Below are positions 7,862 to 59,891 of a stretch of 64,000 bases of DNA, piece after piece. A program made the translations under genes and the position numbers. Location of the stretch: NCBI GenBank assembly GCA_035236585.1, contig CP141138.1, positions 30,825,437 to 30,889,436 on the forward strand, written 5' to 3'. This stretch comes from Warburgia ugandensis (taxonomy: Eukaryota > Streptophyta > Magnoliopsida > Canellales > Canellaceae). The notes beneath the pieces are model-generated. The model was not told where the DNA came from. It did not search any database and was given only the letters and a program-made list of their open reading frames with translations. Positions within the stretch are counted from its first letter, which is position 1. Each line of letters opens with the position of its first letter.

Positions 7862-7934
7862 GAGGTCTTTTCTTATAGCTAGTTAAGTCGTATGCTTCTT
7901 CTTCTTGTGCCAAAGATCTTATCATTTCTAGAAG

Positions 7935-8075
7935 AACTAGAGCTACATCTCTTTTCAATTTCCATTCAAGAGTTCTTATGTGTTTCCAAGCCCTTTTGAG
8001 ACCTCAAAAAATATACATATTCCTTTTCTTAGGAACACATACAAGATTCATCACTACAAAAAGGATAATGGAAAC
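7935..8075 (-). other. plastid rps12-trnV spacer, distal part
   Basis: The plus strand reads ctacatctcttttcaatttc, cattcaagagttcttatg, ttccttttcttaggaacaca and tcactacaaaaaggataatg, which I recognise as plastid inverted-repeat sequence upstream of trnV-GAC. It belongs to the same tract as 6046-6500, displaced by about 1.4 kb of other DNA that includes ndhH. Confidence 0.7.
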
Positions 8076-8500
8076 CCATTGGAAAGGGAGTGTATGCGAG
8101 TTGTGTATTTCAAGAATAGGCCAAATCCAACTGGCTGCACTTTCTTTTTCTCTTTTTTTCTTTCTACATAGGAACATTATAACTAGGAAAAAAAGGTTCA
8201 CAATCTTAAATAATTACTTCTGAATAAATTAAGAAATCATATGTAAGAACCATAGCATTTTGTGACTCATTGGTAAATCAACTTTGATTCTCTATCAACC
8301 AACAATGTGGGACCATTAACATGGTTAAAGCTAAAAGGCAATGTGATAAAGCATCAATACATATTCATCCATAATTACATGAATCTAGTTCATAGAAAAA
8401 ATGAAAACAATAAAGAGCCTTGAGTCAATAAAGACTGAGGAGATTGACTCGGGAACAAATTAAATTGGGAACAACATTGTAGAGTTTAGACCTAGCCATT
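8076..8500. other. unassigned stretch
   Basis: No gene or known repeat was recognised. The minus-strand frame at 8004-8201 runs out of the plastid spacer and is not a gene. Confidence 0.35.
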
Positions 8501-10067: not shown

Positions 10068-10170
10068 TGTATGTATGTATGTATGTATGTATGTATGTAT
10101 GTATGTATGTATGTATGTATGTATGTATGTATGTATGTATGTATGTATGTATGTATGTATGTATGTGTGT
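10068..10170. repeat. (ATGT)n microsatellite
   Basis: About 25 tandem copies of the tetranucleotide ATGT. Reverse-strand frames across it give a Tyr-Ile-His-Thr repeat, an artefact of the microsatellite. Confidence 0.97.
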
Positions 10171-10871
10171 ATTGAGATACATTGATAGTGTGTAAGCATT
10201 TCATGAATTAAATGTGTTTTAGTTTTTAATTTTAATGATGATTCATTATCTTGTTGGACATGTTTATTTATGAGATGATGCATGATAAGAGTTTTGGTGA
10301 TTCTTCATATCTTGTAAAATACCTTGTAAAGGTTATTATTGTCATTAAAACAATATGCATGGATATTGAAACTAATAAATTGAAATGGTTTGGTATAATA
10401 TTGATATATACTTCATATTGAAATTTTTGAGTTTATTTAAAATTGTATAAATTCCATATTCGATGATGAAACTGCCTACACAATTGCAAGAGTGCTGAGA
10501 TATTGTACTTGTTTACAATATCTTAGGTTCAACTCATCCAGGCAGAGGAAAGGAAGTAGAGGCTTGACTTTGAGCCACAAAGGAGTCAGGCTAAGGTAAT
10601 GTTAAGTATGTGTATAAGACTTACTAAAGATATACTAAGAATTTTGTAGTGAAATTGCATCATGACTTAACTTGATTGGACATGTGGATATGTATTATTT
10701 AACCGTAACTGGATGGCTATGATTGGAGTGATTCTGGTGGAGTTGTTTCAGTTTCCTAGCCTTTTGGAATTACAAAATTGTTTCTCTTTCTTTAAATGTA
10801 AATAGACATGTATAGGGATGTGATTTGGAGGGAGACTGAGTCTCCTTTGTTATCTTATCATATTGTGTTTA

Positions 10872-18126: not shown

Positions 18127-21100
18127 ACAAGCTATGCTTGGTAGGGGATTCAAGGACATATGGAATCGTATAATTCAAAAATATAGTATTCATAATCATC
18201 ATATTCCATATGAATCACATAATTCAATTTCCATGAACCATACCATATATGATCATTCTATCATATAATTTATCATGTAACATCTACTATGATAATTTCA
18301 AACCACTTACTACTATATCGTATGTGTGTGTATATATACGGTCAAAAACCATGAAAAATAGTCAATATCTCAAACATCAATAATCATACTCAAATATACT
18401 AAGTTGATAAATCATTCAGACTTTTGTTGGAAAAATACTCCCACATTAGGGCAGTATAGGCATCTCACTATGCCATGCATCATAATGCAAAATACTCAAG
18501 GATTGCCATGATGCAGTTTGATCTGTGCTAACACGCTTGGATAACTGCTCGGTTCACCACTGATACCATGGTGGAAAATATTGTATCACTACCCATATGG
18601 GGAGACAAGACTTTCACAGTGGGGCCTTCCCATAATTGCCCCACCCGACTTTTGGCCTCTCTGGGTAAGGTATCATAATATCATCAAATTTCAGGAAGCA
18701 AGTGGCCAAACCCTCATAACTTCCCTAACATAGCATCCCCAAGCTTATGCCTATTTAAAGCAAAACCACAAGCCTCCATGCTATTATCTAAAATACTTCT
18801 TGTACATCTCAGACAATCTTTCTGTTTATATTATCATCCTCATACTAAGGATATAATCTCATTTCTAGATTTAGGGATCCTCATTTACAATGAATGATAC
18901 TCATGTTCATATAAGTTTAGGGATTAATTATTTATTGTAAATGATCCTCATTTCCTCTAATTTAGTATTCATATACCAAATGTTATTAAGTGTAAGGATA
19001 CTCATTTAATACAAATGATATCCATTATTATTATGTTCTTATCTAAGTTTAGGGGTAATCATAAATGATATCTAGGTATTTATTATGTATTTCTAATTTC
19101 ATCAGTTATTTCTATCTCATATACATGCATTATGATTCAAATGTAACTAAGCATATTATCATCCTTAAGCATTATAATGTCTACATATAACAACAATTCC
19201 ACAGACCATAGGGCTTGTATTCTTAAAGTTCTACCTGCCTTCATGTAGTGATTCATCCCTTCAAATCTTCCATGATTGTCGTATGTAATTTTTAAATACA
19301 TACATACTTTAATTATCCATGCAATTTTGGATAATCTCCTATTTAAATTCCTTATCTAATCTTGTCCTTTGATATAAAGGAACTAGATCTATCTTGTGTT
19401 CCTATAATTCATACAATCTATCTTCCGTAGATAGTGTTTATCCTATTAATTAATAGATCTGATGGTTAAAATGATCTTCTAATCTTTTAGATCTAAGTAT
19501 TTTCTATCTCTAAGTCTTTCTGTGTCCCTCTCTTTGATTTTGATCTTTCATAGATGTTTTGATCAACAATTTTTACTTGTTGATAAAGATCAAGGGCTTA
19601 GATATGCTATCATCTAGTTCTTCTTTGATCTAAGTTCAGTTATTTGATCACACCTAGGGAGAATGATCCTAGTTCTTTCCTTGAATTATATTTGATCAAG
19701 TTGGATTATCTAATCTAATGATTTAGATTTTTCTACAACATATATATATGGATACATAATAAAATACAACATTAGGATTCTTATTGTTCTGGATCATTCA
19801 AGATAATATGGATCTTGTTTGATCATCTTTTATCTTACTTATAATTTTTATTAAGATTAGATAATTTATTAACTTTTTATGTTATTATTATTATTATTCA
19901 ACTAGTTAATGTTTTACTAGTGGAAGATAACTTATTTTATCCTAAGTCTAGACAACTCCTCTTCTTTCCAATTGACTAAGGCTTACTAGCTCAATGGCTG
20001 AATACAAAGTGGTTGCTTTAATCCTCATGTAAGGAGGCGTTTAGACCTCACAAATGTTAATGGAAGGTAGGGGAAGAGCGAGGCTCTATTAGAAAATCCC
20101 CTTAACCACTATATTCAGCATTTACTAGAGTGACCTTAGCTCAACCTTTCATAAGGTTCCTATGAGCATTTTAACCCTAAGTACTCTTTCTAATTGATTT
20201 CAATTAAATCCATGAACATTTAAAATGTCATTCATGGGATTTATTATTCTCCTATTTTGGGCCAAGGATTTGATAATCCTTATATTGTCCTACTAACTAT
20301 AGCCCTTATTATCATTAAGTCCCTGTCATTCACTCCATGTAAATGTCCTTCAACTCTATTTTCATTTAATTACATTTTCAATGTAATTTACATAACATAA
20401 CATAAGCATAAATAAATAAGTATATCTAAAAATTAAATCTACTAAGTAATATAAGATATTTAAAATAACATTAATGATTCAAATAAACATATATATGATA
20501 TCATCATGATCCAATGGTCATCTTTCATTTCTAATCATCTTTCATCCTATTTAGCTTTTAGATCTTGATCTTTTATTTTTATTTAATCTACTCATTTTTC
20601 TCAAAGTGATCTCATCACTAGATCATTGATATCATCTTATCACATGATTTGATCCTTCTTGATCTAACCAATCAAGAAGATCTTAAGCCATTTTATCCAA
20701 TTTAAGGGCATAGATCTTAATCTATCCCAAATTATCATCATCAAGCTAATTAATCCATATGATCTTAACTTTATATCATCATCCAAATACATCCACACTG
20801 TCCATTCATCCTTGATCAAACTGATCAAGGAGATTACCATTCACTTTATGAATTTTACTACTTTTAAGGGTCAAGATCTTCAGATCTGGAAAATAAATTA
20901 CATCCAACCATTTAATTATTGTAATTATACATTTAGATCATCATCTAAACTATTTTAAAAGGTTTGATCATGCTTGATTAATCATATCATGAAGATCCAT
21001 GCTCATTTTTATGATTTTTCTTCCTTTAAGTCTAGGTTTCTTAATTAAACACAAATCAATCACTTCTAACCATTGATTCCATGTTCCAGAATCATAAGAT

Positions 21101-22148: not shown

Positions 22149-23463
22149 GGACAACGTCTCCCTAGACGCTTTGATGCAGACACAGGGTTGTCTACCTAGG
22201 TGCGTCTGGGGACATGCTCACAAAGAAAGAGAGAAAGAAGAGAGAAATGGTAAAGATGGAGAAGGATTTTGGATCTGAAATTTCAAGGGATTGTAAGGCA
22301 CCTAGTGCGAAATTTTTAGGAAAATTTTTGAGAAAATTTATGGGCTCTTTATAGAGATTTTGGAATTTTCCATGATTACATGTCATAATTATGTTTTATT
22401 TCTTTTTATTAGTAAATTGTCATTAGATTCCCACTACCACCTCCTTTTCCACTAGTAGCTGGTAGTGGTTTGACTTATGATGGTGGTCTTCTAGGCCAGT
22501 GGCCCACCTTGAGGGCCCCACATAGTTGTGAAAAGACTGTTTTGCCCTTTTAAATCCAAAAATGGAGAAAATTAGGGTTTATTCATATGAACTCAAAATT
22601 GAGTGTTCTTAATGTCATTGTGATTGATTTTCTGAGTACATTCCAAATTTTGATGCATTAGGTCTCAGTTGTGAGTAAAATTACTATTTTATCATTTTAT
22701 TCATAAAAATAAAGAAAAATAAGGATTTTCATCCAGACTCAGAATTTGACATACTTACAGTCATTCTGATCAATTTTTTGAGTACATTACAAATATCCAA
22801 GTTTGAAGTCTTGATTTTATTTTTATAAAAATGAATTCTCTTGGAACTCAAAGTTTCAATTCCACTTTTAGAATTTTAACTTTTAATTTTTTATAATTCA
22901 ATTATATTCATAAAAATTGGGGTTGTCACAGGCCCATCTTAGCTTGTTTGGATTATGGACTTGGTGGACTTGGCCCAATTGTCTGGACAAAAGGCCTATC
23001 ATCTAGAAGGCTTGTATTCTAGAAACTGTGTAAAAAAGTCTAATGTAAACATTTAAATATTCTAGAAAGCCTCTACATTAGTCCTTAGGAAATATCTAAG
23101 CTAGATATTTTTAGAGTTGTATGGAAGATTTTAGTAGAACTTCTATAAAAGTGTCAAACATTGGATTATAAACACATGGAACAATCTCCACTACACATTG
23201 AGGAGGTGGTAGGTGGAAGATAAGTATAAATAAAGAAGCACTCCTCAGTTGTAAGTAAGTGGGAAAGAAGTGAGAGAGAAGATCTAAGAAGTTGAGTGAG
23301 AGTGTGAGGGAGTGAATCTTATAAAGGTATCAACCTTATTCCTATGGTTGTTCTTAAATAAAATTGAGAAAGTTTTTCTCTCTTTCATTAGTACTTTCTC
23401 TCTTCTTATTTTCCTCATAGATCATAGTTGTGGGTGATGGCTTAGAAAAGCCAACATCCAACA

Positions 23464-26503: not shown

Positions 26504-29500
26504 CTATATACATACATACCCTTCATGGGTAAACCAGTTAAATTTGTGAAAGTAGTCAAATATCATTCCCAACTAAGCTTATCAATTCTCTTCATTTTGA
26601 GAATTTAGTATTTTAGCTAATCTTATACTGAGAATTTCCCTTCTTGGGAAATATTGGTAATATACAATTACCTAGCATTTCATTATGCTACAACATAAGG
26701 CATTTCACTATGCCTATTCTCATATGCATCATAGTGCAAAATAATCAGAAAGGTTGCTATGCTGCAGTCTGATCCGTACTAGCATGCTCGGATAACTGCC
26801 CAGTTCACCACTGATACCACGGTGGAAAATATTATGTCACTGCCCGTATGGGGAGACAAGACTTTCACAGTGGTGGCCTTCCCGTAATTGCCACTACCCG
26901 ACTTTTAGCCTCTCATTGGGCAAGGTATCATCATATCATCAAATTTCAAGGAGTGGGTGGCCAAACCCTTATAACTCCTTTAGCAATAGCATTCCCTAAG
27001 GCTTATGCCTATTAAAAAAAACTCACAAGCCTCCAAGCTTGTATGTAAAATAGATTTCATATATATCAGACCATATGTCTGTTTACTTAGGGCTGAAATA
27101 TTTCCTAATTCCCTATTCACTTATAGTTTAGTCCTTAACCATCTTATATGTGTTTGGTTGGATCATAAGGTTTTCAAGAGATTCAGTACAAGTATTATCA
27201 TTACTCTTGTGAACATAAGATCATGACTACAATCATGTATATCTCATGTAAATGCATTAATCAAATCCTCCTACCTTTAAGGATTGATCTCTTTTCCCCA
27301 ATCTTCCATGATCCTGACTGATGTATGTAATCTGTACATCCATACATATTGTCAATATCTAAATTATGAACAATTCTATTGATCACTAGATCTGATGTTT
27401 AGAATGATCTTTAGATCATTCATATCTAAGTATTTTTCTCTCTAAGTCTTTGTATGTCCATCTCCTTGATTTTGATCTTTCATAGATCCTTTGATTGACA
27501 ATCTACACATGTTGATAAAGATGATAAAGATCAAGATCAAGGTCCTAGATCTTCTATCATCTAGTTCTTCTTTGATCTAAGTTCAGTTCTTGGATCATCC
27601 CTATGGAGGATGATCTTGGTTTTCTTCCTTGAATCATCTTTGATCAAGGGTATGGATTATCTAATCTAATGAGCTATAACAAGTATACTACTAAACATAT
27701 ATACTAAGTACAATATAGTGTTCTTATTCTTATTGTTCTTGATCATCCAAGATCTAATGGATCTTCTTTGATCATCCTTATCTTACTTACTGTTTTTATT
27801 AGGGTTAGGTAATTTACTAACCTTTTATGCTCTTATTATTATTATTCAACCAGTTAATGTGCTGGTTGAAGGTAGCTTATTCAAGCCTAAATCTATGATG
27901 CTCCTCTTATTTCCAATTGGCTAAGGCTTACTAGCTAAATGGGTGAACACAAAGTGGTTACTTCAATCCTCATGAAAGGAGGCGTTTAGACCTCACAAAC
28001 GTCAACAGAAGGTAGGGGAAGAGCGAGGCTCTATGAGATAACCCCCTTGACTACTTTGTTCATCATTCACTAGAATGACCATAGCTCAACCTTTCATAAG
28101 GTTCCTATAAGCATGTTTACCCTAAATACTCTTTCTAATGGATTTTAATTAAGTCCATGAATATTTATAATGTCATTCATGTGGTTTATTATTCTTTTCC
28201 TAATTTGGGCCAAGGATTTGATAATCCTTATATTGTCCTACTAACTATAGCCCTTACTAATTAAGTCCAAAGTACTCCATTCTTATTTGTGTCATGAAAC
28301 TTCTACTTTCTCATTAGAATACATTTTTGATGTTTTATGCTCTTTATCTCATAACAAGTAAATCTACTAATAACATTTAACCATAAATCAATTATAGATT
28401 CAAAGCATAAAACTACTTAATTTAACATTCTATGATAATGAGGCAAGGTACTTAAATTAAATCTAACACCTTATGATAACAATGAAATCACATATCATGC
28501 TAAGTCTAAATGTTATACTAGCATGCTTTATAACATAATCATATTTAAAATAGCATGAAACTAATTACATTAACATTTTTAGAAACCTTTACTTATGATC
28601 CAACCATTTGATCTTAGATCTTTTCCTTGGATTAAGGATTTTAGTTGTATTTAGGGAATTTTCTCTATTAAGGTCAAAAGATCATATTGATCTATTTTTG
28701 TCATAATCCATTCATGATTTCCTTGGATTTCATCATATCAACATTTATTCTTTCCATCCCAAGGGTCTGATCACACTTGATCTCATTGATCAAGTGGGTC
28801 CCTTTGTATTTTTAGGGTTTTTCTACCATAAAGGGTAGATCCCTTAATATATATCATATATATCCAATTAAACCATAGATATTACTTTATTTCAATAGTA
28901 TATCATTATTAAAACATGTTTTTAAGATCTAATCATCTCAAATCTTGAAAATCTATCTAATTGGAAACTTATTTCTTTAATACAGAAAGTTTTTACTGAA
29001 TAACATGTATATTTTATCATTTCATAAGAAAATAGAGGTTTCAAGTTTTCCATAGCTTCTTTCCGATCTCAATTTAGAGTTCAGATGACTCCGAAATTGA
29101 AGCTGGAAGTTCACAGTCCTTCTTAGGGCCTGGATTTGATCTGGGCCCAAGGAACGGACGGCCCAGATCGTTCGGGCAGAACGTCGGACTGGTCGTCGGG
29201 CGTGTCCGCTCAGATGAATGGACGAAGCGCTCTTGAGGGGCGTCTACGGACGCGGACGGGACAAGCGGAACGCCCGTCGTCCACGCGCCCATGAACTTGG
29301 TTTTCATCTGGTGCGTTTGCTCATGGATTTGATGGATGTGCCATCGTGTTGGTTGGAATGACACTCCATGTGCAGTGCACGCGCCGTTCCGATGGTGCAT
29401 CGCATGTGCGTCTTGGGCGCCGTCTGATCCGGAGATCAGACAGTCCATTATGGACCGTCCAATCAATCCTCTTTGAATTGAGGGCTCAAAACGTCTCTGA

Positions 29501-35639: not shown

Positions 35640-38600
35640 ATAACAAATGTACGATAATACTGGATGGTTCTTCAATAATTGTCCTATTATAACCATAAAT
35701 ATATGATGGTTCTTAAAGAACCATCCTATATTTGTTTTCCATTAAAACAAACATAGCACAATTCTTCAATAATCATCCTATTTAAATCATAAGTATAGGG
35801 AAGTTAAATTATAACCGTCCTATATTTAATGACGAATATAGAATGGTTCTTAAAGAACTGTCCTATATTCGTTTTCCTTTAAAAAAAAAAATATAGGATT
35901 GTTGTTCGATAATCATCCTATTTTAATCATAAATATAGGATGGTTCTCAAAGAACCATCCTATATTTCTTTTCATTTACTTAAAAATTGTCAGGGAGGTA
36001 GCTTGAAGTCCAAACCTCATGTTAATAAGTTGTAGTTGGGACCGCTTAGCTATACTTAACTTAGTTCGTCAAGTCATACCAAATTAAAACTTTATTAGGT
36101 TGTGTAGTACTACATTCAATTAGAACTTTAGAACCATCCTATATTTGTTTTCCTTTACTTTTAAATTGTCAAGGAGGTGGCTTGGAGTCCAAACCTCACC
36201 TTAACAAGTTATAGTTGGGACTGCTTAGCTACACTTAGCTTAGGTCATCAAGTCATACCAAATTAAAATTTTATTAGGTTGTGTGATGCTACATTCAAAC
36301 CATTGGACATTTAGACTATTGATGTAGTACATTGAAACCAATCCTCAAAATTTACATCATTCTTAGTCTAAAGTGTAAATATTTACACTTATTAACATGG
36401 ATATTCTATTTCTATCTACTTTAGGCTTTATGCAATAAAGAGTTGCTTTCACTGTGCACTCTAATACTTAGCCTTTAGTTGCTAACACATCAATGTTGTT
36501 ATGTAATTTTAGGTCATATAGATAATGTCTTCAACTCTTTAAGATGAATATAACAAGTGTCAATTTTGGATCATGACTAATATATTTGACCTAACGTTTC
36601 TTTTGTCTGGCTCAATTTCTTTGTTTGTTATCATACTTTCTAACTTAAGGTCAAACTGTTCTATGTAGATGAAACTTTAAAGGTTAGCCAACTTCAATAT
36701 ATCTATCCAATTATATCTCATAACATGAACTAGATTGAGACTCCACATTGTTTGAGCATCTACTTAGCAATATACACAAATGGAATTCCTTGCCATTCAT
36801 AAATGTATTCTAAAGAATAGATTGAATTGCATTCATAATTCCTTATCATTCACAAATTGTTATTATATAGAACACAAGAAAGGAATATTTAAGTTAAATA
36901 TCGAACAATTTCTGGATAACTATCCTCTATACTATTACTAGAAATTTGTCCTCTATACGCTAATAAATATAAGATGGTTAATAACTAACTAAGCATCCTA
37001 TATTTTTGTTGATTATAGGTTGGTTTACAAATAACCATCCTATATTCTTTGAATATAATTACTTTATTGTTGATGTGATACAGGACAATTCCCCCACAAC
37101 AGTCTTGTATTATCACTATTAGCATCAATATTAATAGAGGACGATTCATTGAGAACCATCTGGTATTTTACTGTCTTATAGGATATTATAGGACGGTTAT
37201 TCAATAATAGTCCTATATTCATCAGAATCATAGGATGTTTATATAATAACCATCTTATATTTGTTTTCCTTTATAATCCCCTCTCCTGCCTTTCACCCAA
37301 CCCAAATTTTGGAAAACCATCCCTCAGCTAGAACAAAAATCCAGACCAGAAGAAGAAGGAGATAAAGGGAGAGAGAAAGTGTGCTACCTAATGTAAGGAG
37401 AGAGAAGAAGAAGAAGAAAGATAGAGAAAGGGAGAGTGAGAAACTGACCATGCAAATTTGCCTATGCTACCCCAAACAAGAAGAAGGAGAGAGAAGGGAG
37501 AGAAGAAGAAGGAGACAAAGGAAGGGAAAAGATAAGAGGAAATGGAAGGAGGTAACTGCTCTTAGAATTTCTATCTCGCCATTTTCTACCTATTTTTTGT
37601 TATGCTAAAAAAGTTCCTATACATCTCACATATCCAAATACCTCATTTGTCCAATGAACTTCATCAAAGAGTCAATATAGGGTTAACACTATTTTTCAAT
37701 TATGGGTCTTTTAAACTCATTCCCTTTGATGTATTTGCCTACATGGAGTCTCTTGTATGTTGCATCACCCAAATGTCATGCCATGTGTATGAAAATAGTT
37801 ACAAACACTCTACTCTAAAGAGTGGAAACATAGATAGCCTAGCTAGCTCTAGAAACAAGTGGAATCCACTATGTTTGTGTTGGTAAGCAGTCTTCAGATT
37901 TAGAATCCACATGGTTTGTAGCCTTCATTAACAATCTCTATGAGTAATCACTACTAAATATATTTGTTATCTTTCTTTTTTGGTATATGTAGACCTTTAC
38001 TTTCAACTATATGAAAAATAAGGCTTGCTTTTTTTCTTATTAGCAAGAGAGTTTTGTACTTTGTAGTTGGAAGATGGCATGAACAGGTTTACTGTCATAT
38101 TACTCATGGAAACTTAGTGAGAATAGTGCCTTTCTCACATATCTTTTAGATAAACCTAAACTAGTGAGCATGGAATTGAGACTATCTCAACTCATGTTCA
38201 ATTCTTTTGCTTACTAAAACTATTTTGAAATGTAACCTCTTTAATCAGACCTTAGTTCAATGTATATTTACATTATAACTATTAGCTGGTTTTCTCCTAC
38301 ATTTTTTGTTGTTTGTTTGAATTGCCATTATTTTCAGCTGATCTAATTGTAGTGTTTTCACTTGTCAAGGAACACATGGAACGTGAAGAATATGAGTAAG
38401 AACAACATGAATAACAAGCAAGCATATGTACACCTATCAAGAGAAAGGGTAGAAGGCTGACAAAAATGGAACATATAATTAAGAGAAAGTCAAAGAGAAA
38501 AAAAGAGATGGTACAATTCAAAAGTAGAGAGCAAGCAATAGGTGCTAATGTACATTCTTATACTAGTTTCATATGTTGCACAACTAGAAGCATGGTGCTA

Positions 38601-44927: not shown

Positions 44928-47900
44928 ATGATGCAGCACAGTTTCTTCACCACGATGCGTAGCCTGAAAATTGTCGATGGCTGCAAAGGGAGCAGCCAAG
45001 TTCATGCCCTAAATGCTGCCGGCAATGCTGCCGGCACAGGCATTTATCATGCCGGAGAAAAGTCCTCTCAAGACAGGCCACATATGCCGAGGACAAAATC
45101 CATCATATCTCATAACAGAACCAATTCAGCTTCTCAAACTGTAGACGTTTTCCTTCCTTACGGGCTTCCTGATGGCGATCTTATTGAGCCCCCAATCGAA
45201 CTTCACCTTAAATTTGTCGATTTGATTGAAACCCTAGCTGATGTGCACTGCCGGCTGGAGAATTGTGATTCTGAGGAGGAAAAATCCGGCCTTTATCTTG
45301 AGCAATATTCCGTTTTCCTTGGGATTTCGGATCCCAGATTGCTCCGTCGGTCCCTTCGATCCATTCGTCAGCATGCTTCTGATGTCCATTCTAAGGTAGT
45401 TTCTGCGGCTTGGCTCAGGTTTGAGAGGAGAGAAGACGAACTCCATGGTTATTCTTCTATGGACTGTGGGGGCCGAATAATGGAATGCCCGAAATCCACT
45501 CTTGTTTCCGGGTATAATCCTGATACTGTTTATGACCCCTGCCCATGCCGCAGTGTTTCGGATGACGGTGAGGTTGAGGATATGTTAGAAGAAGAATGCT
45601 CAACGTCTGTGGACGAGGGTGATATTGCATTTTGCATTGGTGATGAAGAGGTGATCTGCATTAGGCATAGGATGGCGGCGCTCTCCACGCCCTTCCGGAC
45701 GATGCTGTATGGTTGCTTTAAAGAATCGCAGAGGGAGAAGATAAACTTCACACAAAATGGAATATCCGTGAGGGGAATGCAAGCAGTAGAGTTGTTTAGC
45801 AGAACAGGTAGATTAGATGCTTTCCCTCCGGATATTGTGTTGGAGCTCCTCTGTTTTGCTAACAGATTCTGCTGTGAGGGAATGAAGTCTATGTGTGACA
45901 TGCAGTTGGCGTCACTTGTATGTTGTTTGGATGATGCGTTGGCACTAGTTGAGTATGGATTAGAGGAGACTGCACATCTTCTGGTGGCTTCATGCTTGCA
46001 AATCTTCCTAAGAGAGCTCCCAAGTTCTTTGTACAATCTAGATGTTTCAAAATTGCTTTGTAGTGCCGAGGGTCGGAGAAGGTTAAGTGCAGTTGGGCAT
46101 GCTTCATTCATGTTGTATTACTTCCTAAGCCAGGTGGCGATGGAGGAGGATGTGAGATCCAACACTACGGTGATGTTACTTGAGAGATTGGGAGAGTCTG
46201 CAATGGTTGACTGGCAGAAACGGCTAGCATTACACCTATTGGGTTGTGTTATGCTGGAGAGGAAAGAGTACAAGGATGCTCAGCATTGGTTTGAGGCAGC
46301 TGCCGAGGCAGGGCATGTTTATTCATTGGCAGGTGTTGCAAGGGCCAAGTACAAGCGTGGGCATAAGTATTCGGCATACAAGCAGGCCAGCAGCTTGATC
46401 TCAGATTTTAAACCAGTTGGGTGGATGTACCAAGAGCGCTCCCTATATTGTATTGGAAAGGAAAAGATGTTGGACTTGAATACTGCAACTGAGATGGATC
46501 CAACCCTCTCATATCCATACAAGTACAGGGCCATTGCGCTGATGGATGATAACAAGATTGGTGCAGCTATCTCAGAGATTAATAAGATACTTGGATTCAA
46601 GGTTTCTCCCGACTGCCTTGAATTGCGTGCCTGGTTTTCTCTTGTTATTGAAGATTATGAAGGAGCTCTGCGGGATATAAGGGCACTGATGACTTTGGAT
46701 CCAAATTATATGCTGTACCATGGGAAGTTGCACGCAGACCAGCTGGTTGAACTTCTCCGGCAACATGTTCAACAATGGAATATGGGTGATTGCTGGGCCC
46801 AACTTTATGACCGATGGTCCTCTGTCGATGACATTGGGTCTCTGGCTGTTGTCCATCAGATGCTGGCCAATGAACCCAAACAGAGCCTTTTACGGTTTCG
46901 GCAATCTCTCCTCCTGTTGCGGTAAGTGTATAGTCAGGAATGCTGTTTTGTTCATGCTTTAGGAACTGCATATTTAAGCTGCATTCTGAGTTGCACCAGT
47001 CTATGTCCAAACTCATGTATGTGGAAGACTTATCCTACCATGTATCTGATCAGGCTAAAACTGTTGCAATCACCTAAACCATGAGATAAGGGACTTTTTC
47101 ACATGAATATAAAACATGTATGTCTTTCCATTTTCCCCTCCAAAACAGATGCCAAAGCTTTCATTCCTACTGCAAGGACCATGTCCTGACAAAGCTGGCT
47201 AACCCTACTCAAAGGCTTTCATCTCTGTTCAGATTAGGTAATTGTCAATTAATCATCCTGTTTTGTAAGGTGCTTTCTAGGATCAGTTTTCTTTTTGGTG
47301 ATAAGAACCAGCATCCTCTATCATATGCATTTGGCAAATAACAACTTGGAGAAGAAATGTTTGATAGTGTGATGCTTCCAGTTGGAGAAGGAAAGGGACC
47401 CCACAGATGTTCTATCCTGTATTAGAGAGGCATAAGTTAATGCTGTTCTTTGAATTTACTAATTTCTATATGCTAACAAGCGATTTTGTTGCCTGTTGAC
47501 AATTCATTAGAAAATAGCTCTTAATCAAATGTTACTTTGTTTGAATAACAGTTTCCAGTAATACTGAAATATTATGGTCAAGAAAGTCCCAGAAAGTATT
47601 GCTCATCTTAACTTGAAATGAATGTTCTCCTGTAACATTATACTTCCCAATTTATGGTTCTTTCATTAATTGTTTGTTATTCCTTCAGTGCACCTGATAG
47701 TTCCCAATTTGTAGGTTAAATTGTCAGAAGGCTGCAATGCGCTGTTTGCGTTTGGCCCGTAATCATTGTACATCTCCAAGTGAAAGGCTTGTTTATGAAG
47801 GATGGATATTATATGACACTGGTCATCGTGAAGAAGCACTAGCTAAGGCAGAGGAATCCATTTCTATCAAGAGATCATTTGAAGCCTTTTTCCTGAAGGC

Positions 47901-50900
47901 ATATGCCCTAGCAGATACATGTCTAGATCCAGTGTCTTCATCTAATGTAATACAGCTTTTGAAGGATGCTATTACATGTCCTTCTGATGGTCTTCGGAAA
48001 GGACAAGTAAGTGTTTCTCATACTTAAGGAAAACCAATGTCTTGCCTATGTTGATTGTTGAATATGCTATTTTTTAGTTGGCTTTTTCAAATGGTTATTC
48101 TTCCAGGCTTGGAATAATTTGGGAAGCGTCTATGTGGATTGTGATGAGCTGGATGAAGCTGCAACCTGCTACCACAATGCCCTTGGTATAAGGCACACTC
48201 GAGCGCATCAAGGTCTTGCACGTGTTTATCATCTTAAGAGTCAAAGAAAAGCTGCTTATGATGAGATGACCAAGTTGATAGAGAAAGCACGAAACAATGC
48301 CTCAGCATATGAAAAACGTTCTGAATATTGTGACCGGGACATGGCAAGGGCTGATCTCAGTATGGCAACACAGTTGGATCCATTGAGGACTTATCCTTAC
48401 AGATACAGGGCTGCAGGTAAGCTTTTCAGGTTTTCTCTTAAGTTTTTCTCCCTTGTACTCTCCTCTGGTTATCCATCTTTAAATTGATTAAGTCCTTTTC
48501 ATATATTAAATTAATTGACGGCTTGGTTTGCTGTGTTTTATGGAAAGCAACTATTAGAACTGTGAATTTAGATTCATTGTAGAAGGAGAGCAACTTATCT
48601 GTTTCCATGTTATTTATATATTCTTTTTCAGAAGAGTATTCTCAGGGGGCTCACAGGTGGGAGGAGTACAAGTTAAAGAATTTTGTAAGCTCTTATATGG
48701 TAATGGGCAGCAGTCCATGTCCTAAAGTAAAGGACTAAGATGTCCAAATGAAGGGGTAGGGGATAACTACATTGGCTTATAAAAAATAATTAGAATTCCA
48801 ATATATGCATTTCTTCCAATCCTGAAGTTGATGTCTTTCTCGGGACATAATCAAGTTGTTTTAAAGTTTTTCTCTTCTCCTGCATGAAATGAAAGTCAGT
48901 ATTTGCCATTTTTCTTACATGGATGACTAGGACGCGAACACTGATTATAGGACTAAGAGATTTATAGGCTGCTCCTAAAGGGGATGGGTAATCCAAAGAA
49001 GTGGATTATTGTTTTATCTATAATTTAATTCTGCCTTTCTACTATATCATGCTAATGTGCACTATTTTCTATTGTTTTTTTTCATTTCTAAGTTAAGTGA
49101 TTGTTGGTCATAAAGAAGAGGCCTATTTTTATCCTTTCATGAATTAGTTTCACTAGCAATATCTAACATATGGATACACTTCAACCTATGACTTTTGTAT
49201 TATCGCAGGATGATAGAACAACTGATATTAAGGTACCTCTAATGAATCTCACCTTAGGTGTTTAATTGATCCTCTATGACATATGGATACTAACAAACAT
49301 GATTTTTTCATAAGTAATGGCAGGTGTTCTAAATTAAGCTGATGCACTTGATCAAACATTGTTGAGAAACATCCCATAACTCAACAAATAAATTTTGGGA
49401 AAATAAGTAGTCTCATTTGAGATCCAAAAGTAGACCCGAAGTTGAGCGTTCCTACTAAAGGAAATAGAGGGTCCTAAAAGATTTAGTTATTCCACTCCTC
49501 ATTTCTCCATATAATATATCACATAATTAGGAAAATCCTAAATCTAGAAATAGCTTTGAGAAGAATCTCCTCAAATTGTTTCCAATACAGTGTATGTTAG
49601 TGTGGTTTTATGATCTCACGGCCCCCCGAGCCTGGATAAAGGAGGGATGTGTCATGAATTTAAAGACTAAGATATTCCCTAAGCCCAAGTCGTTCCCCAT
49701 AAGTGGTGTGCTGCATCAGAGCCTAGATGGAGTGAGAAATGGGTATGGGTTGTTAAGGTGTTCCCCCATAAGTGACGTGCTGCATCGGATCCTAGGTACA
49801 GTGGAAAGTGGGCAAGGGCTAATAGAGTGTTCTCTCAAAAGCGATGTGCTACATCAGAACCCAGGCGCAGTGAGAAGTAGGCAAAGTTTCTCATGACCTT
49901 TTAGATGTGCCCAAGTAAAGAGATTAGCTCAGGAGAATAAGATTCGTATCGCTAGATAGAATATAAGCACATTGACATGTAAGAATATGGAGTTAGTAAA
50001 TATGATGAAACATAGAAGAGTCAACATAGCTTGTGTCCTAGAAACTAAGTGGAAAGGTGATAAATTAGAGAAACTAAGAAGTATAAGCTTTGATACATAG
50101 GAAAGAACAGTAATGAAAATGGAGTAAGGATAGTGGTGGATAAGGAATTAAAGGACAAAGTTGTAGACGTTAAAAGAACCAGTGATAGAATTCTACTAAG
50201 AAAACTTGAGAGAAGATCATAAATGTTATAATTGTATACACCCCACAAGTAAGGCTAGAAGATAGAATCAAGAGACAGTTTTGAGAACATATGGAAGAAG
50301 TAATGCAAGAAATTCCCAACACAGAGGGAATATTTATAAGAGCGAACTTAAATAGTCATATAGGAAAAGAAAAAGAAGGATGTGATATGGTGCATGGAGG
50401 TTATGGTATTGGAGAAAGAAATGAGATGTGGGAAGCTATCCTTGGCTTCGATTTGGCATATAATCTAGCTCTAGCAAATACATACTTTAAAACGAGGGCT
50501 GAATACTTACTAACGTTTAAAAGTGAATCATATAAAAGCCAAATGGACTTTTTTCTACTTAGGAATACTAAAAGATCAATGTGTAAGGATTGTAAGGTGG
50601 TACCCAATGAAAGTTTGATCACACAACATAGTTTGATGGTTATGGATATTTACATTAAGAGATGAAAGAAAAGAAATGAACTTAATAGGTGCTCAGAAAC
50701 TAAGTGGTGGAACTTAAAATGAGAGAAGATAACATCATTTAAAAACAAGTTGATGGTAGAAGGAATGTTGAAAAATCAAACAGAAATAAACACCATATGG
50801 CCTAATGTGATTGAGTCTATTAAGAAAGTGGCAAAAGATGTTCTAAGAGTATCTAATGGTAAAAGGCAACCAGTAAAGGAAACATGATCATGACGTGAAA

Positions 50901-53900
50901 AAGTGCAAAAAGTTACTAAAGAGAAATAGGTGTGTTTTAAAACATGACATAGGACTAGAAATGATGAGAACTTTGAGCATTGTAAGAATGCTAAAAGGGT
51001 TGCTAAGAGAATAGCAAGTGATGCTAAGCTGTAGGTGTATGACGATCCCTATGACAGACTAGGGTCAGGAGAAGGTGAGAAAGATGTGTTCAACCTTGAA
51101 AAAATAAGAGAAAAAAAGTAAGGAGTTGGACCAAGTTAAATGCATCAAAAGTGATGATTAAAGGGTACTAGTCAAAGATGATGATATCAATCAAAGGTAG
51201 AAAAATTAGTTTCAAAAATTGCTAAATGATAACTATTTAGAGAATATAGATATTGAAAGAACTGTAAACTCAAATATATAGCATGATAGTATGATCAGGA
51301 TACTTGTAGTAAAAGAGGCCTTAGAAAAGATGAAATTGAAAAGGCCCTAGGGCACGATGGTATACAAATAGAGGTTTAGAAGCACGTAGGAGATAGTAGA
51401 GTAGTCTAGTTGACAAAGTTGTTTAACAAGATTGTAAAAAAAAATAAAAAAAAATATGATTGATGAATGGAGGAAAAGCTTTATTGTACCAATCTATAAG
51501 AATAAAGGAGACTGATAGAGTTGCAGTAATTATTGTGAGATCAAACTTATGAGCCATACCGTGAAACTTTTGGAAAGAGCGATTGAGAAGAGGCTGTGAC
51601 ATGAGACGAGTATATCGGAAAACTAGTCTAGTTTTATGCTTGAAAGGTCTACCATGGTAGTTATTTTCCTATTTAGATAATAGATAGATAAATATAAGGA
51701 TAGGAGGAAGGACCTACCTATAGTCTTTATTGACTTAGAAAATCTTTTGATATGATCCCTAGAGAATTTAATATGGTAGATGTTAGGCGAGAAAGGGGTT
51801 TCACTAGGGTATATAGACATAATTAAGGATACGTATGGGGGAGCAATAGCAAATGTTAGAATCACTAGCGGAGAGACTAATGATTTCCCTATCACTATAC
51901 GATTGCCCCAAAGATTGGCATTGAGCTTGTATCTTTTCATGTTAGTTATTAACAAAGCAACTACACGAGGAGATATCATGCTGCTTATTATTTGCAGATG
52001 ACATGGTTTTGTTTGATAAGCAAGGGAGGGCATAAACACAAAGCTAGAGTTGTGGAGAGATGTTATAGAGTCTAAAAGATTTAAAAATAGCCGGACTAAG
52101 ACCGAGTATATGGAATGCAATTTTAGCAAGGAAAGGAGCGGGAGTGAAGCACCAATAAAGATTAATAACCAAGAAGTTCCCCAAAAGGCCCATTTTCGAT
52201 ACTTGGGATCGATAATTCATGAGGGAAGAGATTGAGAGGGATGTTATCTAGAGAATCCAAGTGGGTTGGAACAAATGGAGATGTGCTTCTGAAGTTTTGT
52301 GTGATCGGCAGGTGTCACTCAAATTGATAGGAAAATTCTATAGCATTGCTGTAAGGCTGACCATGCTCTATGATACAAAGTGTTGAGTAATTAAGGAACA
52401 ACATGTACACTGGATGTGTAGTCAAAATGAGAATGTTGAGATGGATGAGTGGTAACACACGAAAGTATATGATTAGAAATGAAAACATTAGAGGAAACTT
52501 AGGAGTAGCACCAATAGGTAACAAGATGAGAGAGGGTTGACTAAGATAGTTTGGACATGTCCAACGGAGATCGAGAACAGCTCTGGTTAGAATGAGTGAG
52601 TCTATCGAAGTCAAAGGCTCTAAAAGGGCAAGGGGAAGGCCCAAAAGACGTGGATAAAAGTGGTGAGAAAAGATTTACAAACATTTGGACTAAATGAAGT
52701 CATGAAACTTGATAGAGGGGAATAGAAGAATGAGATTTGTGTAGCTGACCCCTGATTGGGATAAGGCTTTGATGATGATGACAATGCATGTTAGTGCTAA
52801 GATATTTCATGTGAAAATTTCATCTAGGAACCAAAATATAGAGTAATACACAAAATTTACAATAGCTTTTGAGGTGCTACATTGTTATAGATACCTTGCT
52901 TGTAGTGGAAGCATTGTTTAGATTTCCAAAAGACATGAGTAAAATGATGTAATGGTAAAACTACAAAGAAAATTAAAAAATGTTTGCCAAATACTCAATA
53001 CAAGATAGACGTGGAACATGGAAAGAACTGTTTGAGGACATAAAAGCAGAGCCAATATTATTTGGAGAGAAAATCCATAACTGGTGCTGTGAGATGATCA
53101 AAATAAGGAGCAAAATAGTTGATACTTTTGAATAACCGAACATGTGATGAGTGTCACCATATCAAAATAAGTAGCAAAGCAGGAAAGAACTGAGTACAAT
53201 TTTGGCATAGAGGAAACATGTTATTCTTTGAAACTCACAAACATAAATGGTTATGAAGCTTCTTATGACAATTTATAGGAGTATGAATCTACCCTAAGCA
53301 GGTTCATTTGATGGAAGGAACTTTTTATGGTGTTAATCTACGCAGAAGAAAGATTGAATCATTGAAAGAATGAAACTGCAGGATGGGTTGCTTCCAGTAA
53401 GAGACAAGTGCTAGTTGAGCAAATGCCATGTAGCATAAAGGGACAAGAAAGCCCTCAAAAGAGGCTCATAGCTGTTTTGTGTTAGAAAAAAAAAAAATTT
53501 GAAAAGAGACTAATGCTAATCAAATGAAATTCCAAGTTCTGCAAGGTTCAGTTGGAATAGAAACTCAAAAGAGAATTGGTTTTGTCTTTATTCACTTTGG
53601 ATACTGAGTCTTGTCATGTGATGCGCTATGTGGTTGGCAAATGGAAGGAAATTTGTTATTCATATACTGTTTAAGTGCTCATTGAAGGGTTTCCTTTTTT
53701 CTTTTCCATGTTATGTGAATATAGACATCAAAAGTTGAAAACCCCATTTCTCCATATAATATATCACATAATTAGGAAAATCCTAAATCTAGAAATAGCT
53801 TTGAGAAGAATCTCCTCAAATTGTTTCCAATACAGTGTATGTTAGTGTGGTTTTATGATCTCACGGCCCCCCGAGCCTGGATAAAGGAGGGATGTGTCAT

Positions 53901-56900
53901 GAATTTAAAGACTAAGATATTCCCTAAGCCCAAGTCGTTCCCCATAAGTGGTGTGCTGCATCAGAGCCTAGATGGAGTGAGAAATGGGTATGGGTTGTTA
54001 AGGTGTTCCCCCATAAGTGACGTGCTGCATCGGATCCTAGGTACAGTGGAAAGTGGGCAAGGGCTAATAGAGTGTTCTCTCAAAAGCGATGTGCTACATC
54101 AGAACCCAGGCGCAGTGAGAAGTAGGCAAAGTTTCTCATGACCTTTTAGATGTGCCCAAGTAAAGAGATTAGCTCAGGAGAATAAGATTCGTATCGCTAG
54201 ATAGAATATAAGCACATTGACATGTAAGAATATGGAGTTAGTAAATATGATGAAACATAGAAGAGTCAACATAGCTTGTGTCCTAGAAACTAAGTGGAAA
54301 GGTGATAAATTAGAGAAACTAAGAAGTATAAGCTTTGATACATAGGAAAGAACAGTAATGAAAATGGAGTAAGGATAGTGGTGGATAAGGAATTAAAGGA
54401 CAAAGTTGTAGACGTTAAAAGAACCAGTGATAGAATTCTACTAAGAAAACTTGAGAGAAGATCATAAATGTTATAATTGTATACACCCCACAAGTAAGGC
54501 TAGAAGATAGAATCAAGAGACAGTTTTGAGAACATATGGAAGAAGTAATGCAAGAAATTCCCAACACAGAGGGAATATTTATAAGAGCGAACTTAAATAG
54601 TCATATAGGAAAAGAAAAAGAAGGATGTGATATGGTGCATGGAGGTTATGGTATTGGAGAAAGAAATGAGATGTGGGAAGCTATCCTTGGCTTCGATTTG
54701 GCATATAATCTAGCTCTAGCAAATACATACTTTAAAACGAGGGCTGAATACTTACTAACGTTTAAAAGTGAATCATATAAAAGCCAAATGGACTTTTTTC
54801 TACTTAGGAATACTAAAAGATCAATGTGTAAGGATTGTAAGGTGGTACCCAATGAAAGTTTGATCACACAACATAGTTTGATGGTTATGGATATTTACAT
54901 TAAGAGATGAAAGAAAAGAAATGAACTTAATAGGTGCTCAGAAACTAAGTGGTGGAACTTAAAATGAGAGAAGATAACATCATTTAAAAACAAGTTGATG
55001 GTAGAAGGAATGTTGAAAAATCAAACAGAAATAAACACCATATGGCCTAATGTGATTGAGTCTATTAAGAAAGTGGCAAAAGATGTTCTAAGAGTATCTA
55101 ATGGTAAAAGGCAACCAGTAAAGGAAACATGATCATGACGTGAAAAAGTGCAAAAAGTTACTAAAGAGAAATAGGTGTGTTTTAAAACATGACATAGGAC
55201 TAGAAATGATGAGAACTTTGAGCATTGTAAGAATGCTAAAAGGGTTGCTAAGAGAATAGCAAGTGATGCTAAGCTGTAGGTGTATGACGATCCCTATGAC
55301 AGACTAGGGTCAGGAGAAGGTGAGAAAGATGTGTTCAACCTTGAAAAAATAAGAGAAAAAAAAGTAAGGAGTTGGACCAAGTTAAATGCATCAAAAGTGA
55401 TGATTAAAGGGTACTAGTCAAAGATGATGATATCAATCAAAGGTAGAAAAATTAGTTTCAAAAATTGCTAAATGATAACTATTTAGAGAATATAGATATT
55501 GAAAGAACTGTAAACTCAAATATATAGCATGATAGTATGATCAGGATACTTGTAGTAAAAGAGGCCTTAGAAAAGATGAAATTGAAAAGGCCCTAGGGCA
55601 CGATGGTATACAAATAGAGGTTTAGAAGCACGTAGGAGATAGTAGAGTAGTCTAGTTGACAAAGTTGTTTAACAAGATTGTAAAAAAAAATAAAAAAAAA
55701 TATGATTGATGAATGGAGGAAAAGCTTTATTGTACCAATCTATAAGAATAAAGGAGACTGATAGAGTTGCAGTAATTATTGTGAGATCAAACTTATGAGC
55801 CATACCGTGAAACTTTTGGAAAGAGCGATTGAGAAGAGGCTGTGACATGAGACGAGTATATCGGAAAACTAGTCTAGTTTTATGCTTGAAAGGTCTACCA
55901 TGGTAGTTATTTTCCTATTTAGATAATAGATAGATAAATATAAGGATAGGAGGAAGGACCTACCTATAGTCTTTATTGACTTAGAAAATCTTTTGATATG
56001 ATCCCTAGAGAATTTAATATGGTAGATGTTAGGCGAGAAAGGGGTTTCACTAGGGTATATAGACATAATTAAGGATACGTATGGGGGAGCAATAGCAAAT
56101 GTTAGAATCACTAGCGGAGAGACTAATGATTTCCCTATCACTATACGATTGCCCCAAAGATTGGCATTGAGCTTGTATCTTTTCATGTTAGTTATTAACA
56201 AAGCAACTACACGAGGAGATATCATGCTGCTTATTATTTGCAGATGACATGGTTTTGTTTGATAAGCAAGGGAGGGCATAAACACAAAGCTAGAGTTGTG
56301 GAGAGATGTTATAGAGTCTAAAAGATTTAAAAATAGCCGGACTAAGACCGAGTATATGGAATGCAATTTTAGCAAGGAAAGGAGCGGGAGTGAAGCACCA
56401 ATAAAGATTAATAACCAAGAAGTTCCCCAAAGGCCCATTTTCGATACTTGGGATCGATAATTCATGAGGGAAGAGATTGAGAGGGATGTTATCTAGAGAA
56501 TCCAAGTGGGTTGGAACAAATGGAGATGTGCTTCTGAAGTTTTGTGTGATCGGCAGGTGTCACTCAAATTGATAGGAAAATCCTATAGCATTGCAGTAAG
56601 GCTGACCATGCTCTATGATACAAAGTGTTGAGTAATTAAGGAACAACATGTACACTTGGATGTGTAGTCAAAATGAGAATGTTGAGATGGATGAGTGGTA
56701 ACACACGAAAGTATATGATTAGAAATGAAAACATTAGAGGAAACTTAGGAGTAGCACCAATAGGTAACAAGATGAGAGAGGGTTGACTAAGATAGTTTGG
56801 ACATGTCCAACGGAGATCGAGAACAGCTCTGGTTAGAATGAGTGAGTCTATCGAAGTCAAAGGCTCTAAAAGGGCAAGGGGAAGGCCCAAAAGACGTGGA

Positions 56901-59891
56901 TAAAAGTGGTGAGAAAAGATTTACAAACATTTGGACTAAATGAAGTCATGAAACTTGATAGAGGGGAATAGAAGAATGAGATTTGTGTAGCTGACCCCTG
57001 ATTGGGATAAGGCTTTGATGATGATGACAATGCATGTTAGTGCTAAGATATTTCATGTGAAAATTTCATCTAGGAACCAAAATATAGAGTAATACACAAA
57101 ATTTACAATAGCTTTTGAGGTGCTACATTGTTATAGATACCTTGCTTGTAGTGGAAGCATTGTTTAGATTTCCAAAAGACATGAGTAAAATGATGTAATG
57201 GTAAAACTACAAAGAAAATTAAAAAATGTTTGCCAAATACTCAATACAAGATAGACGTGGAACATGGAAAGAACTGTTTGAGGACATAAAAGCAGAGCCA
57301 ATATTATTTGGAGAGAAAATCCATAACTGGTGCTGTGAGATGATCAAAATAAGGAGCAAAATAGTTGATACTTTTGAATAACCGAACATGTGATGAGTGT
57401 CACCATATCAAAATAAGTAGCAAAGCAGGAAAGAACTGAGTACAATTTTGGCATAGAGGAAACATGTTATTCTTTGAAACTCACAAACATAAATGGTTAT
57501 GAAGCTTCTTATGACAATTTATAGGAGTATGAATCTACCCTAAGCAGGTTCATTTGATGGAAGGAACTTTTTATGGTGTTAATCTACGCAGAAGAAAGAT
57601 TGAATCATTGAAAGAATGAAACTGCAGGATGGGTTGCTTCCAGTAAGAGACAAGTGCTAGTTGAGCAAATGCCATGTAGCATAAAGGGACAAGAAAGCCC
57701 TCAAAAGAGGCTCATAGCTGTTTTGTGTTAGAAAAAAAAAAAATTTGAAAAGAGACTAATGCTAATCAAATGAAATTCCAAGTTCTGCAAGGTTCAGTTG
57801 GAATAGAAACTCAAAAGAGAATTGGTTTTGTCTTTATTCACTTTGGATACTGAGTCTTGTCATGTGATGCGCTATGTGGTTGGCAAATGGAAGGAAATTT
57901 GTTATTCATATACTGTTTAAGTGCTCATTGAAGGGTTTCCTTTTTTCTTTTCCATGTTATGTGAATATAGACATCAAAAGTTGAAAACCCCAGGGTGGTG
58001 TTTAAGGACAGCTCAATTTAAGTTAATTTTGCTTCACTATGAGAAATACGAAACTGAGCTCAGTCTTGCTAAGTAAGATGACATCATCAGGAGAATCATG
58101 AGATGACAACACCTGTGTACCTTGAGTTATGCTGAATGCACCCCATGTCTTATGGATTGAGAATATGAGATAGGAGATGTTCTGGTTGCTTGATTATCCT
58201 AAATTGAGAATAGGCTACGAATCATGTTCTGGTACACATGGTATTTGTTTTTGGTTCTATAATACTTTTAAGATGACCTAATTCATTCAGTGGAGTAAGA
58301 TTCTAAGCTAAGCATGTTAATGTATAATATATTTACAAATTACAAAAATCCATTCAGTTCTGAACATCCAATTATTTTTTGGATCAGACACGGAACATCT
58401 GTTGGATACATGTTTCATGTTGCAGATTCTCCCTGCAAGATACAGATGTCTCTTGACCCAATAGGTTCACATATCTTTGTGAGCCCACTGTACATCTTCC
58501 ATGTCACCAATGGCTACATAAATAGGATGCATCTGAATAGCTTCCTCAACAGGGTACCAGATTCCTTGTTGAGAATATTATAGAATTCATGTCCCACGCA
58601 CCCTAATACACATGTATAGTCCTGGTTAAGGGTGCAACCTTTGTTTAATGTATGGAGATATTTTTTTGCATATCTGAGCCATTCATAATATCCATAGAGT
58701 CCTGCTTGAGCGTATCATAGAGTTGTGTTCTTCATTGATAGACAAGTTGTGATGGTCTTTCCATTTGAATGAGGCAAGAGAAAACCTATAAGAACTAAAA
58801 ATTTAAGCAGAATTGATGCATGCAAAACCTGTTCTATTTATTATACACCTATCTGTAATTTATCAGGTATATCATTAGTTTCTCCTAGAAGCTGGAAAAT
58901 CTGATCCATGGTTTGTTAATTTGGTTTGTTGGCCAACGGGTGCTTGGCGAGTCAATTCTATGTACCAGCTAGTTCTCTGCACAACGGTAAAAGTTGTCTT
59001 CATGTGACCTTGAGGTCATGGGTTCAAGGCGTGGAAACAGCCTCTTGCAAAATGCAAGGCAAGGCTGTGTACTTTAGGCCCTTGTGGTTTGCCCTTTTCC
59101 AGGGCCCCGCACAGGCGGGAGCTTCGTGCACCGGGGCTGCCCTTTTAGCTAGTTCTCTGTACATTGTTGGTCTTACTTATCTGAATTTACAGGTTCATTA
59201 ATTGATTTCAAGGAATATACATTATTTGTCTGGTACAATAGGATTAGTTTAGGAGGGTTTTTAATGAACTTGTTAAAACTTGTGATTCAATAACTCATCC
59301 AGAATCCAACACCTTATCACAATTTTTATTTTGAAATAATATGTGTTAATGTACTTACATATTGAGGTACTAGTACAAAACAATTATACATAGCTTTTAT
59401 ATGGTATTACATGTGTATGCAAGGTATGAGGCCCAGTTTTGGGTGAAACTGAATTTTGCTACCGCAGATCATGGTCTTTTTCTAAAAAAAATTGACAAAC
59501 ATGTAAAACAAGTATTGTTTATGGATGTAATAGTGAGGTTGTGACTAACTTCCAATGCATACACCTGTATGTTCGTATCTTTTGGTTTATTGATCATTTG
59601 ACTGCCCAAGCAGATGTACCATTCTAACATCTCCATCTGGTTGCTTCAGTGCTAATGGATGACCACAAAGAAGAGGAGGCTATTGCGGAGCTTACGAAGG
59701 CAATAGCTTTCAAACCGGATCTGCAGTTACTTTATCTTCGGGCAGCATTCCATGACTCTATGGGTGATGTTGCTGCCACTTTGAGAGATTGTGAGGCAGC
59801 CCTCTGCCTCGACCCAAACCACTTGGATACTCTCGACCTTTACAATAAAACCCGTGAAGCCCGTGAGCGACCTGATCAACCGAAGAAGTAA
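44928..59891 (+). CDS. ETO1: ETO1, BTB-TPR adaptor for ACC synthase degradation
   Basis: Coding exons 44928-46921, 47715-48006, 48107-48416 and 59650-59891, all introns GT-AG; joined they make 945 residues and end at TAA (59889-59891). The N-terminus [20 protein letters not shown] matches Arabidopsis ETO1 (951 residues) and separates it from its shorter paralogues EOL1 and EOL2. The BTB domain is at about residues 231-331 ([11 protein letters not shown] to CDMQLASLV). TPR repeats fill about residue 430 to the end, including [40 protein letters not shown] and [20 protein letters not shown]. In Arabidopsis the protein joins CUL3 through BTB and binds the C-terminal tail of type-2 ACC synthases through TPRs, sending them for proteasomal breakdown and lowering ethylene. 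No stops or frameshifts are seen. A start one codon later (44931) would match Arabidopsis exactly. The oddity is the 11.2-kb third intron. Confidence 0.96.
46922..47714 (+). other. ETO1 intron 1 (793 bases)
   Basis: Starts gtaagtg and ends ttgtag. It splits the Arg codon of LLLLR|LNCQK (CG|G). No repeat or gene was recognised inside it. Confidence 0.93.
48007..48106 (+). other. ETO1 intron 2 (100 bases)
   Basis: Starts gtaagtg and ends ttccag, between codons in [12 protein letters not shown]. Near the minimum size usual for plant introns. Confidence 0.94.
49500..53744. repeat. tandem duplication unit 1 (4,245 bases)
   Basis: Direct repeat of 53745-57992. The unit holds about 90 bases of left flank, an RTE LINE and about 950 bases of right flank. 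By eye only about five differences separate the two units: three one-base indels in homopolymers or at cactggatg/cacttggatg, and two substitutions near 52330-52340. Breakpoints share only ca or cca. Confidence 0.95.
49560..52790 (+). mobile_element. RTE-clade LINE, copy 1, inactive
   Basis: Sense orientation relative to ETO1. A 5' segment (49576-49896) has three tandem repeats of about 22 residues around SDVLH and GAVRS. The endonuclease follows (about 49905-50665; [15 protein letters not shown], then [20 protein letters not shown]), then the reverse transcriptase (about 51480-52130; [23 protein letters not shown], and a FADDMVLFD region near 51994) and a C-terminal part ([10 protein letters not shown], then RGRPKR). 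It ends with ggctttgatgatgatgac, the (GAT)n-like tail usual in plant RTE elements. Full-length RTE elements are about 3.2 kb, so little is lost, but many stops and frame changes make it dead. The catalytic GDxN of the endonuclease reads ANLN. Confidence 0.88.
53745..57992. repeat. tandem duplication unit 2 (about 4,247 bases)
   Basis: Direct continuation of unit 1. The join at 53744/53745 (gaaaacccc|atttctcc) differs from the left entry (cactcctc|atttctcc) and from the right exit (gaaaacccca|gggtgg), as expected for a tandem duplication with one to two bases of microhomology. Confidence 0.95.
53805..57036 (+). mobile_element. RTE-clade LINE, copy 2, inactive
   Basis: The same element as copy 1, with the same stops and the same damaged ANLN endonuclease motif, so it was dead before duplication. 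The 5' repeat segment is at 53821-54141, endonuclease at 54150-54910, reverse transcriptase at about 55725-56375, and the tail ggctttgatgatgatgac ends near 57028. Two one-base differences from copy 1 (in ccccaaagg and cacttgg) slightly change the downstream frames. Confidence 0.88.
58967..58982. repeat. target-site duplication of SINE 1, left copy
   Basis: agctagttctctgcac; the partner at 59147-59162 is agctagttctctgtac, 15 of 16 bases alike. Confidence 0.88.
58983..59146 (+). mobile_element. Au-like SINE 1, 5' truncated
   Basis: The plus strand reads aacggtaaaagttgtc, catgtgaccttgaggtcatg, ggttcaaggcgtggaaacag, cctcttgcaaaatgcaaggc, ggcccttgtggtttgccc and aggcgggagcttcgtgcacc, ending ctgccctttt. 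This follows the plant Au SINE closely, including the B box (ggttcaag). The first 18 bases of the tRNA-derived head found in SINE 2 (ggggagccttggcgc) are missing. It lies in ETO1 intron 3 in the sense direction and is flanked by a 16-base duplication. Confidence 0.9.

Follow-up and report, generated by a model that had tools for sequence, protein, structure and literature searches.

How does an intact gene come to hold, within one of its introns, two adjacent and almost indistinguishable copies of the same 4.2 kb of DNA? The question is raised by a 64,000-nucleotide stretch of the Warburgia ugandensis genome (C13:30825437-30889436, here called the window, in an assembly of 1.12 Gb in 14 contigs), in which the third intron of an ETO1-type gene contains a head-to-tail pair of near-identical units, each carrying a decayed RTE-type long interspersed nuclear element (LINE). 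The favoured explanation is that 4,245 bp of intron 3 of an intact gene were duplicated once, head to tail. We consider it probable that such a duplication is real, with an error of assembly the most serious competitor.

The duplicated unit and its host gene

In a comparison of the window with itself, the strongest pair by far matched positions 49497-53746 to 53742-57992, at 99.859% over 4,252 aligned columns. Combined with a residue-level alignment, this resolves into two direct, adjacent copies on the forward strand, one of 4,245 bp (49500..53744) and one of 4,246 bp (53745..57990), that are 99.86% identical and both include unique DNA. The limits of the second can be slid by 2 bp, to 53747-57992, with CA starting both the unit and the DNA to the unit's right. 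The earlier note on this sequence had proposed a near-identical tandem duplication inside one intron, and this is borne out, the intron being the third of a four-exon gene. Its copy lengths of 4,245-4,247 bases stand at the lower figure, and are corrected to 4,245 and 4,246.

The five differences between the copies, which had been counted approximately and by eye, are exactly five in the base-level alignment, and three are single-base indels, as had been claimed. The substitutions are T/C at 52337 and T/A at 52350; the 1-bp indels are an A7/A8 run at 51110, A4/A3 at 52183, and one extra T in copy 2 at 52410. A sixth mismatch in the alignment, at 49499/53744, lies outside the unit, pairing the base that precedes copy 1 with that copy's final base. 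All five differences are inside the LINE, and the flanking parts of the unit, of 103 bp on the left and 964 bp on the right, are identical between the copies. These flanks, which include the element's target-site duplications, correspond to the roughly 1 kb of unique DNA per copy previously reported. The right-hand part in copy 1 (52781..53744, forward strand) was delimited by genome search and by comparison with a homologous locus on contig C2. A query from this flank (52800-53740) matched only the two identical copies and one 77% homologue on C2, and searches with the flanks just outside the unit listed only the window locus and C2, using a program that warns that it skips very common words. 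Both ends of the unit are in unique intron DNA.

The LINE occupies 49603..52780 in copy 1 (3,178 bp, forward strand). It is bounded by the target-site duplications ACAGTGTATGTTAGTG (49587..49602) and ACAATGCATGTTAGTG (52781..52796), both on the forward strand, with 14 of 16 bases in common, and its 3-prime end reads TTTGATGATGATG. RTE-type LINEs are marked by a reverse transcriptase (RVT_1), a 3-prime end in short TGA repeats, and a target-site duplication. This element is provisionally assigned to the RTE clade, a name supported here only by the TGATGATGATG end, the RVT_1 of one relative and the target-site duplication. The description of the LINE as dead is apt: its strand holds just four stop-to-stop stretches of at least 60 aa, the longest being 126 aa. 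A genome search with a 601-bp LINE query gave 11,241 first-look candidates, of which 40 were scored; apart from the pair in the window, these 40 comprised 38 matches of 82-85% identity. All 20 of these 38 that were taken for comparison could be aligned, with 73.5-82.6% identity in pieces of at least 500 bp, and one has a 409-aa stretch bearing RVT_1 (E = 1.4e-27).

The host gene was modelled against two paralogues from the same assembly (C11:69752985 and C12:819399), using exon matches and reading frame, with GT..AG boundaries chosen by hand. Its exons lie on the forward strand at 44928..46921, 47715..48006, 48107..48416 and 59650..59891, the last including the stop codon, and are separated by GT..AG introns of 793, 100 and 11,233 bp. 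Spliced together, the exons form an uninterrupted frame of 945 aa that closes with its only stop, so the claim of an intact host gene holds. Both copies of the unit are wholly within intron 3 (48417..59649, forward strand), of which the added copy makes up 38%. Members of the ETO1 (ethylene overproducer 1) family are proteins of about 950 aa with TPR repeats and a BTB domain. The 945-aa protein has TPR_2 and TPR_1 matches above the Pfam cut-off, and no Pfam match to a BTB domain at E up to 0.01. The ETO1 name was carried over from the earlier note and may well apply, agreeing with the general picture of the family. The 13 genome matches to exon 1 consist of the window gene, the two paralogues, a broken locus on C2, a stop-containing C10 fragment of 69 aa, and short matches of TPR type.

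An outgroup within the genome

The homeologous locus on C2 (C2:50344001-50384000, minus strand) retains homologues of all four exons. Its gene is broken, with stops in exon 1 and with that exon split by about 24.8 kb, such that the window gene seems to be the sole intact member of the C13/C2 pair. The insertion in the C2 exon is repeat-rich, and window positions 46890-46899, a target of about 10 bp, are matched on either side of it.

It is the C2 intron that separates what is ancestral in intron 3 from what is new. It aligns collinearly to window positions 49321-49570, 52781-53613, 53609-53727 and 57971-58482, and contains no second unit. C2 is continuous through the left breakpoint (ACTCCT|CAT...) and through the right breakpoint (AAAACCC|CAGGG...); therefore both outer junctions are ancestral, and only the internal junction, GAAAACCC|CATTTCTC (53735..53756, forward strand), is new, being the one junction without a counterpart in the homeologue. 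At the position of the C13 element C2 has a single target site, lacking the RTE as well as the second unit, and hence the RTE insertion occurred later than the divergence of the two loci. The lengths also balance: once 4,245 and 3,178 bp are subtracted from 11,233 bp, about 3.8 kb remains, compared with roughly 3.7 kb in the third intron of C2. Provided that the assembly is right, this comparison of sequences shows an order of events in which the C13 and C2 loci split, the RTE was inserted on C13, and the tandem duplication followed.

The distance between the two loci also provides a scale for the age of the duplication. C13 and C2 differ at 366 of 2,183 aligned intron sites (Jukes-Cantor 0.190), and the two substitutions in 4,244 bp that separate the copies represent 0.25% of this distance (Poisson 95% 0.03-0.9%). 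Plant substitution rates range from 1.5e-9 to 7e-9 per site and year, and at these rates the point estimates of the duplication's age are 157,000-34,000 years, with a full range of about 4,000-570,000 years. The two substitutions support the suggestion that the intron was lengthened very recently, with the caveat that the true age would be larger than this estimate if the copies underwent gene conversion.

The ends of the unit constrain how the second copy could have arisen. The microhomology, which had been put at one to two bases, is 2 bp (CA), the single-base alternative being discarded. At least 2 bp is shared by 18.5% of random segment ends (P 0.185), drawn at similar spacing to the unit from window positions 100-45,000, and hence the CA is uninformative on mechanism. 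No longer repeat common to both breakpoints was found in the residue-level alignment, and non-allelic homologous recombination between end repeats was accordingly rejected. A hairpin at the right breakpoint, ACCC-CA-GGGT, was unremarkable when tested (P = 0.116). As the breakpoints have no longer repeat in common, the second copy would have been made by a non-homologous route, with template switching during replication and the end joining of a staggered or doubly nicked break as possibilities. Recombination between repeats, break-induced replication and template switching are all proposed routes to tandem duplication in one published study (PMC3744419). At this locus the latter two are indistinguishable, and the first is unsupported by the ends.

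Competing explanations and the clustered differences

Several observations weigh against this reading of a single duplication. Firstly, a span of 228 bp takes in four of the five differences, a degree of crowding that five random points reach in 0.29% of trials, albeit by a post hoc test. Secondly, all four are derived in copy 2 (56428..56656, forward strand), a poor fit to mutations scattered across both copies. This polarisation used the 20 RTE relatives, all of which were usable for the 228-bp stretch. At 52337 (T in 20/20) and at 52350 (T in 18/20, with one A and one C) copy 1 has the base of the family; it also retains the base present in 18/20 at 52183 (two gaps), and matches the family spacing at 52410 in 19/20, the rows having been read by eye where the aligner spread the indel over columns. 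Because copy 1 matches the relatives, copy 2 is the derived one at these four sites, the last by parsimony only. At 51110, six of the 20 relatives could be aligned, ten giving no hit and four partial hits that were dropped; the run length leans in the opposite direction, leaving this difference undecided. Thirdly, 1-bp indels account for three of the five differences, and two of these indels are in runs of A. Fourthly, from an assembly sequence alone an artefact is possible, as a false overlap gives the same layout. Finally, a further near-identical tandem was found within 80 kb of C2, C11 and C12 sequence that had been taken for other reasons, which could mean a tendency of the assembly.

This further tandem emerged from a scan for direct repeats, with lower limits of 200 bp and 95% identity, across 154 kb of contiguous sequence (74 kb of C13, 40 kb of C2, and 20 kb each of C11 and C12), in which it was the one near-identical tandem besides the window pair. 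It is in intron 2 of the C11 paralogue (C11:69758586-69759757), where its two copies, 580 and 579 bp long, stand 13 bp apart and differ by one 1-bp indel. It cuts both ways, reflecting either an active natural process or an assembly tendency.

The competitor that survives best is that the assembler entered one 4.2-kb segment twice, whether from a pair of haplotypes or where contig ends overlapped, and that local consensus errors appear as the differences. Such a false overlap would yield an identical A-U-U-B arrangement, and the 2-bp match of the ends is then simply the chance event already described; the crowding of differences in copy 2, the proportion of single-base indels and the C11 tandem all suit this explanation. 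However, two haplotypes would usually be expected to differ by more than two substitutions in 4.2 kb, and there are none in the 1 kb of unique flank. All four exons are open, so base quality looks good there, and the window contains no N, hence there is no gap at the internal junction. False duplications in assemblies are marked by a gap between the copies, reduced read depth and the lack of a spanning read. The locus resembles those described in PMC9516828 in having near-identical neighbouring copies with few differences, but departs from them in its junction without gap or N. On balance an artefact is unlikely, though it merits being taken seriously, and a real single duplication of the intron 3 segment is the reading we retain.

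The 228-bp cluster itself stays unexplained, the candidates being a local error in the consensus, a cluster of mutations, an island spared by gene conversion, or simply chance. That copy 2 was converted by another RTE copy carrying both substitutions is unsupported: the 27-bp copy 2 sequence that contains them has one match in the genome, and allowing up to two mismatches adds only copy 1, such that the genome search offers no such donor. It is conceivable, if improbable, that the cluster records error-prone synthesis of the second copy, in which case this plant intron would preserve a recent trace of break-induced replication. Slightly harder still to credit is an older tandem duplication homogenised by gene conversion, with the 228 bp left as an island that conversion missed. 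Gene conversion works well on direct repeats of 4.2 kb, and the clustering of four of the five differences suits such an island, but their derived states should then be split about evenly between the copies, rather than all falling in copy 2 (two-sided 0.125), though four differences are too few for firmness.

Two independent RTE insertions can be dismissed as practically impossible, for although each unit contains an element of the same family, about 1 kb of flank beyond the element and the same decay are common to both copies, the other 38 of 40 scored matches to the 601-bp query are only 82-85% identical, and the unduplicated C2 site is free of the RTE. Target-primed insertion likewise fails as the source of copy 2, as the unit ends 103 bp to the left and 964 bp to the right of the element, whose own target-site duplication is inside the unit. 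The earlier note was right, in this respect, to report breakpoints without LINE hallmarks and to infer a segmental duplication rather than two insertions, the C2 outgroup without RTE or second unit now supporting it. The RTE is a passenger of the duplication.

Other features of the window, and what the probable duplication means

Elsewhere in the window, Rfam identified plastid-like pieces that are probably nuclear plastid DNA (5757-8459). They comprise part of a bacterial-type 23S rRNA (5757-5908), a tRNA on the minus strand (6269-6340), and, at 8413-8459, the beginning of the rpl16 intron of plastids; ARAGORN found no tRNA in the window. Diverged direct repeats at 18475-20322 and 26724-28268, about 83% identical, also match the 24.8-kb insertion in C2, and together these are probably related transposable elements; a second diverged pair, at 13302-13769 and 22989-23463, is 79% identical. 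A 179-bp unit is present in about two tandem copies at 35951-36298 (88% matches), and there are long microsatellites at 2932-3033, a perfect (CT)51, and at 10068-10172, with about 26 copies of TGTA (98% matches).

The window tandem adds a further case to a class of event already known. A rice study (PMC7971508, whose reference list includes Vaughn and Bennetzen 2014 and Schiml et al. 2016) describes natural insertions that include perfect tandem duplications of more than 1 kb, the longest being 4.9 kb, with the share of tandem duplications dropping from 70% to 5% of events as length reaches 200 bp and apparently staying level from there to 15 kb. As here, these are direct head-to-tail copies in a plant genome, polarised by an outgroup. 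In contrast, enrichment of the rice events peaks at 50-200 bp, and the study ascribes them to the repair of adjacent nicks, whereas the mechanism proposed for the present 4.2-kb copy follows only from its ends. Tandem direct duplications in a plant are also produced by reversed-ends transposition of Ac/hAT elements, and the maize set has a breakpoint in common within intron 2 of a gene (PMC3744419). Those breakpoints carry class II elements, however, while the ends here are in unique DNA and the LINE is internal.

The value of this locus is that a multi-kilobase, non-homologous tandem duplication is so cleanly polarised, by an outgroup within the same genome, and that its outcome is a longer intron in an intact gene. 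It is also a warning to seek read support for near-identical tandems in plant assemblies before they are put to biological use. The duplication would be expected to have no function beyond lengthening the intron and creating a site prone to unequal crossing-over. Such a direct repeat predicts that the number of copies is polymorphic within the species.
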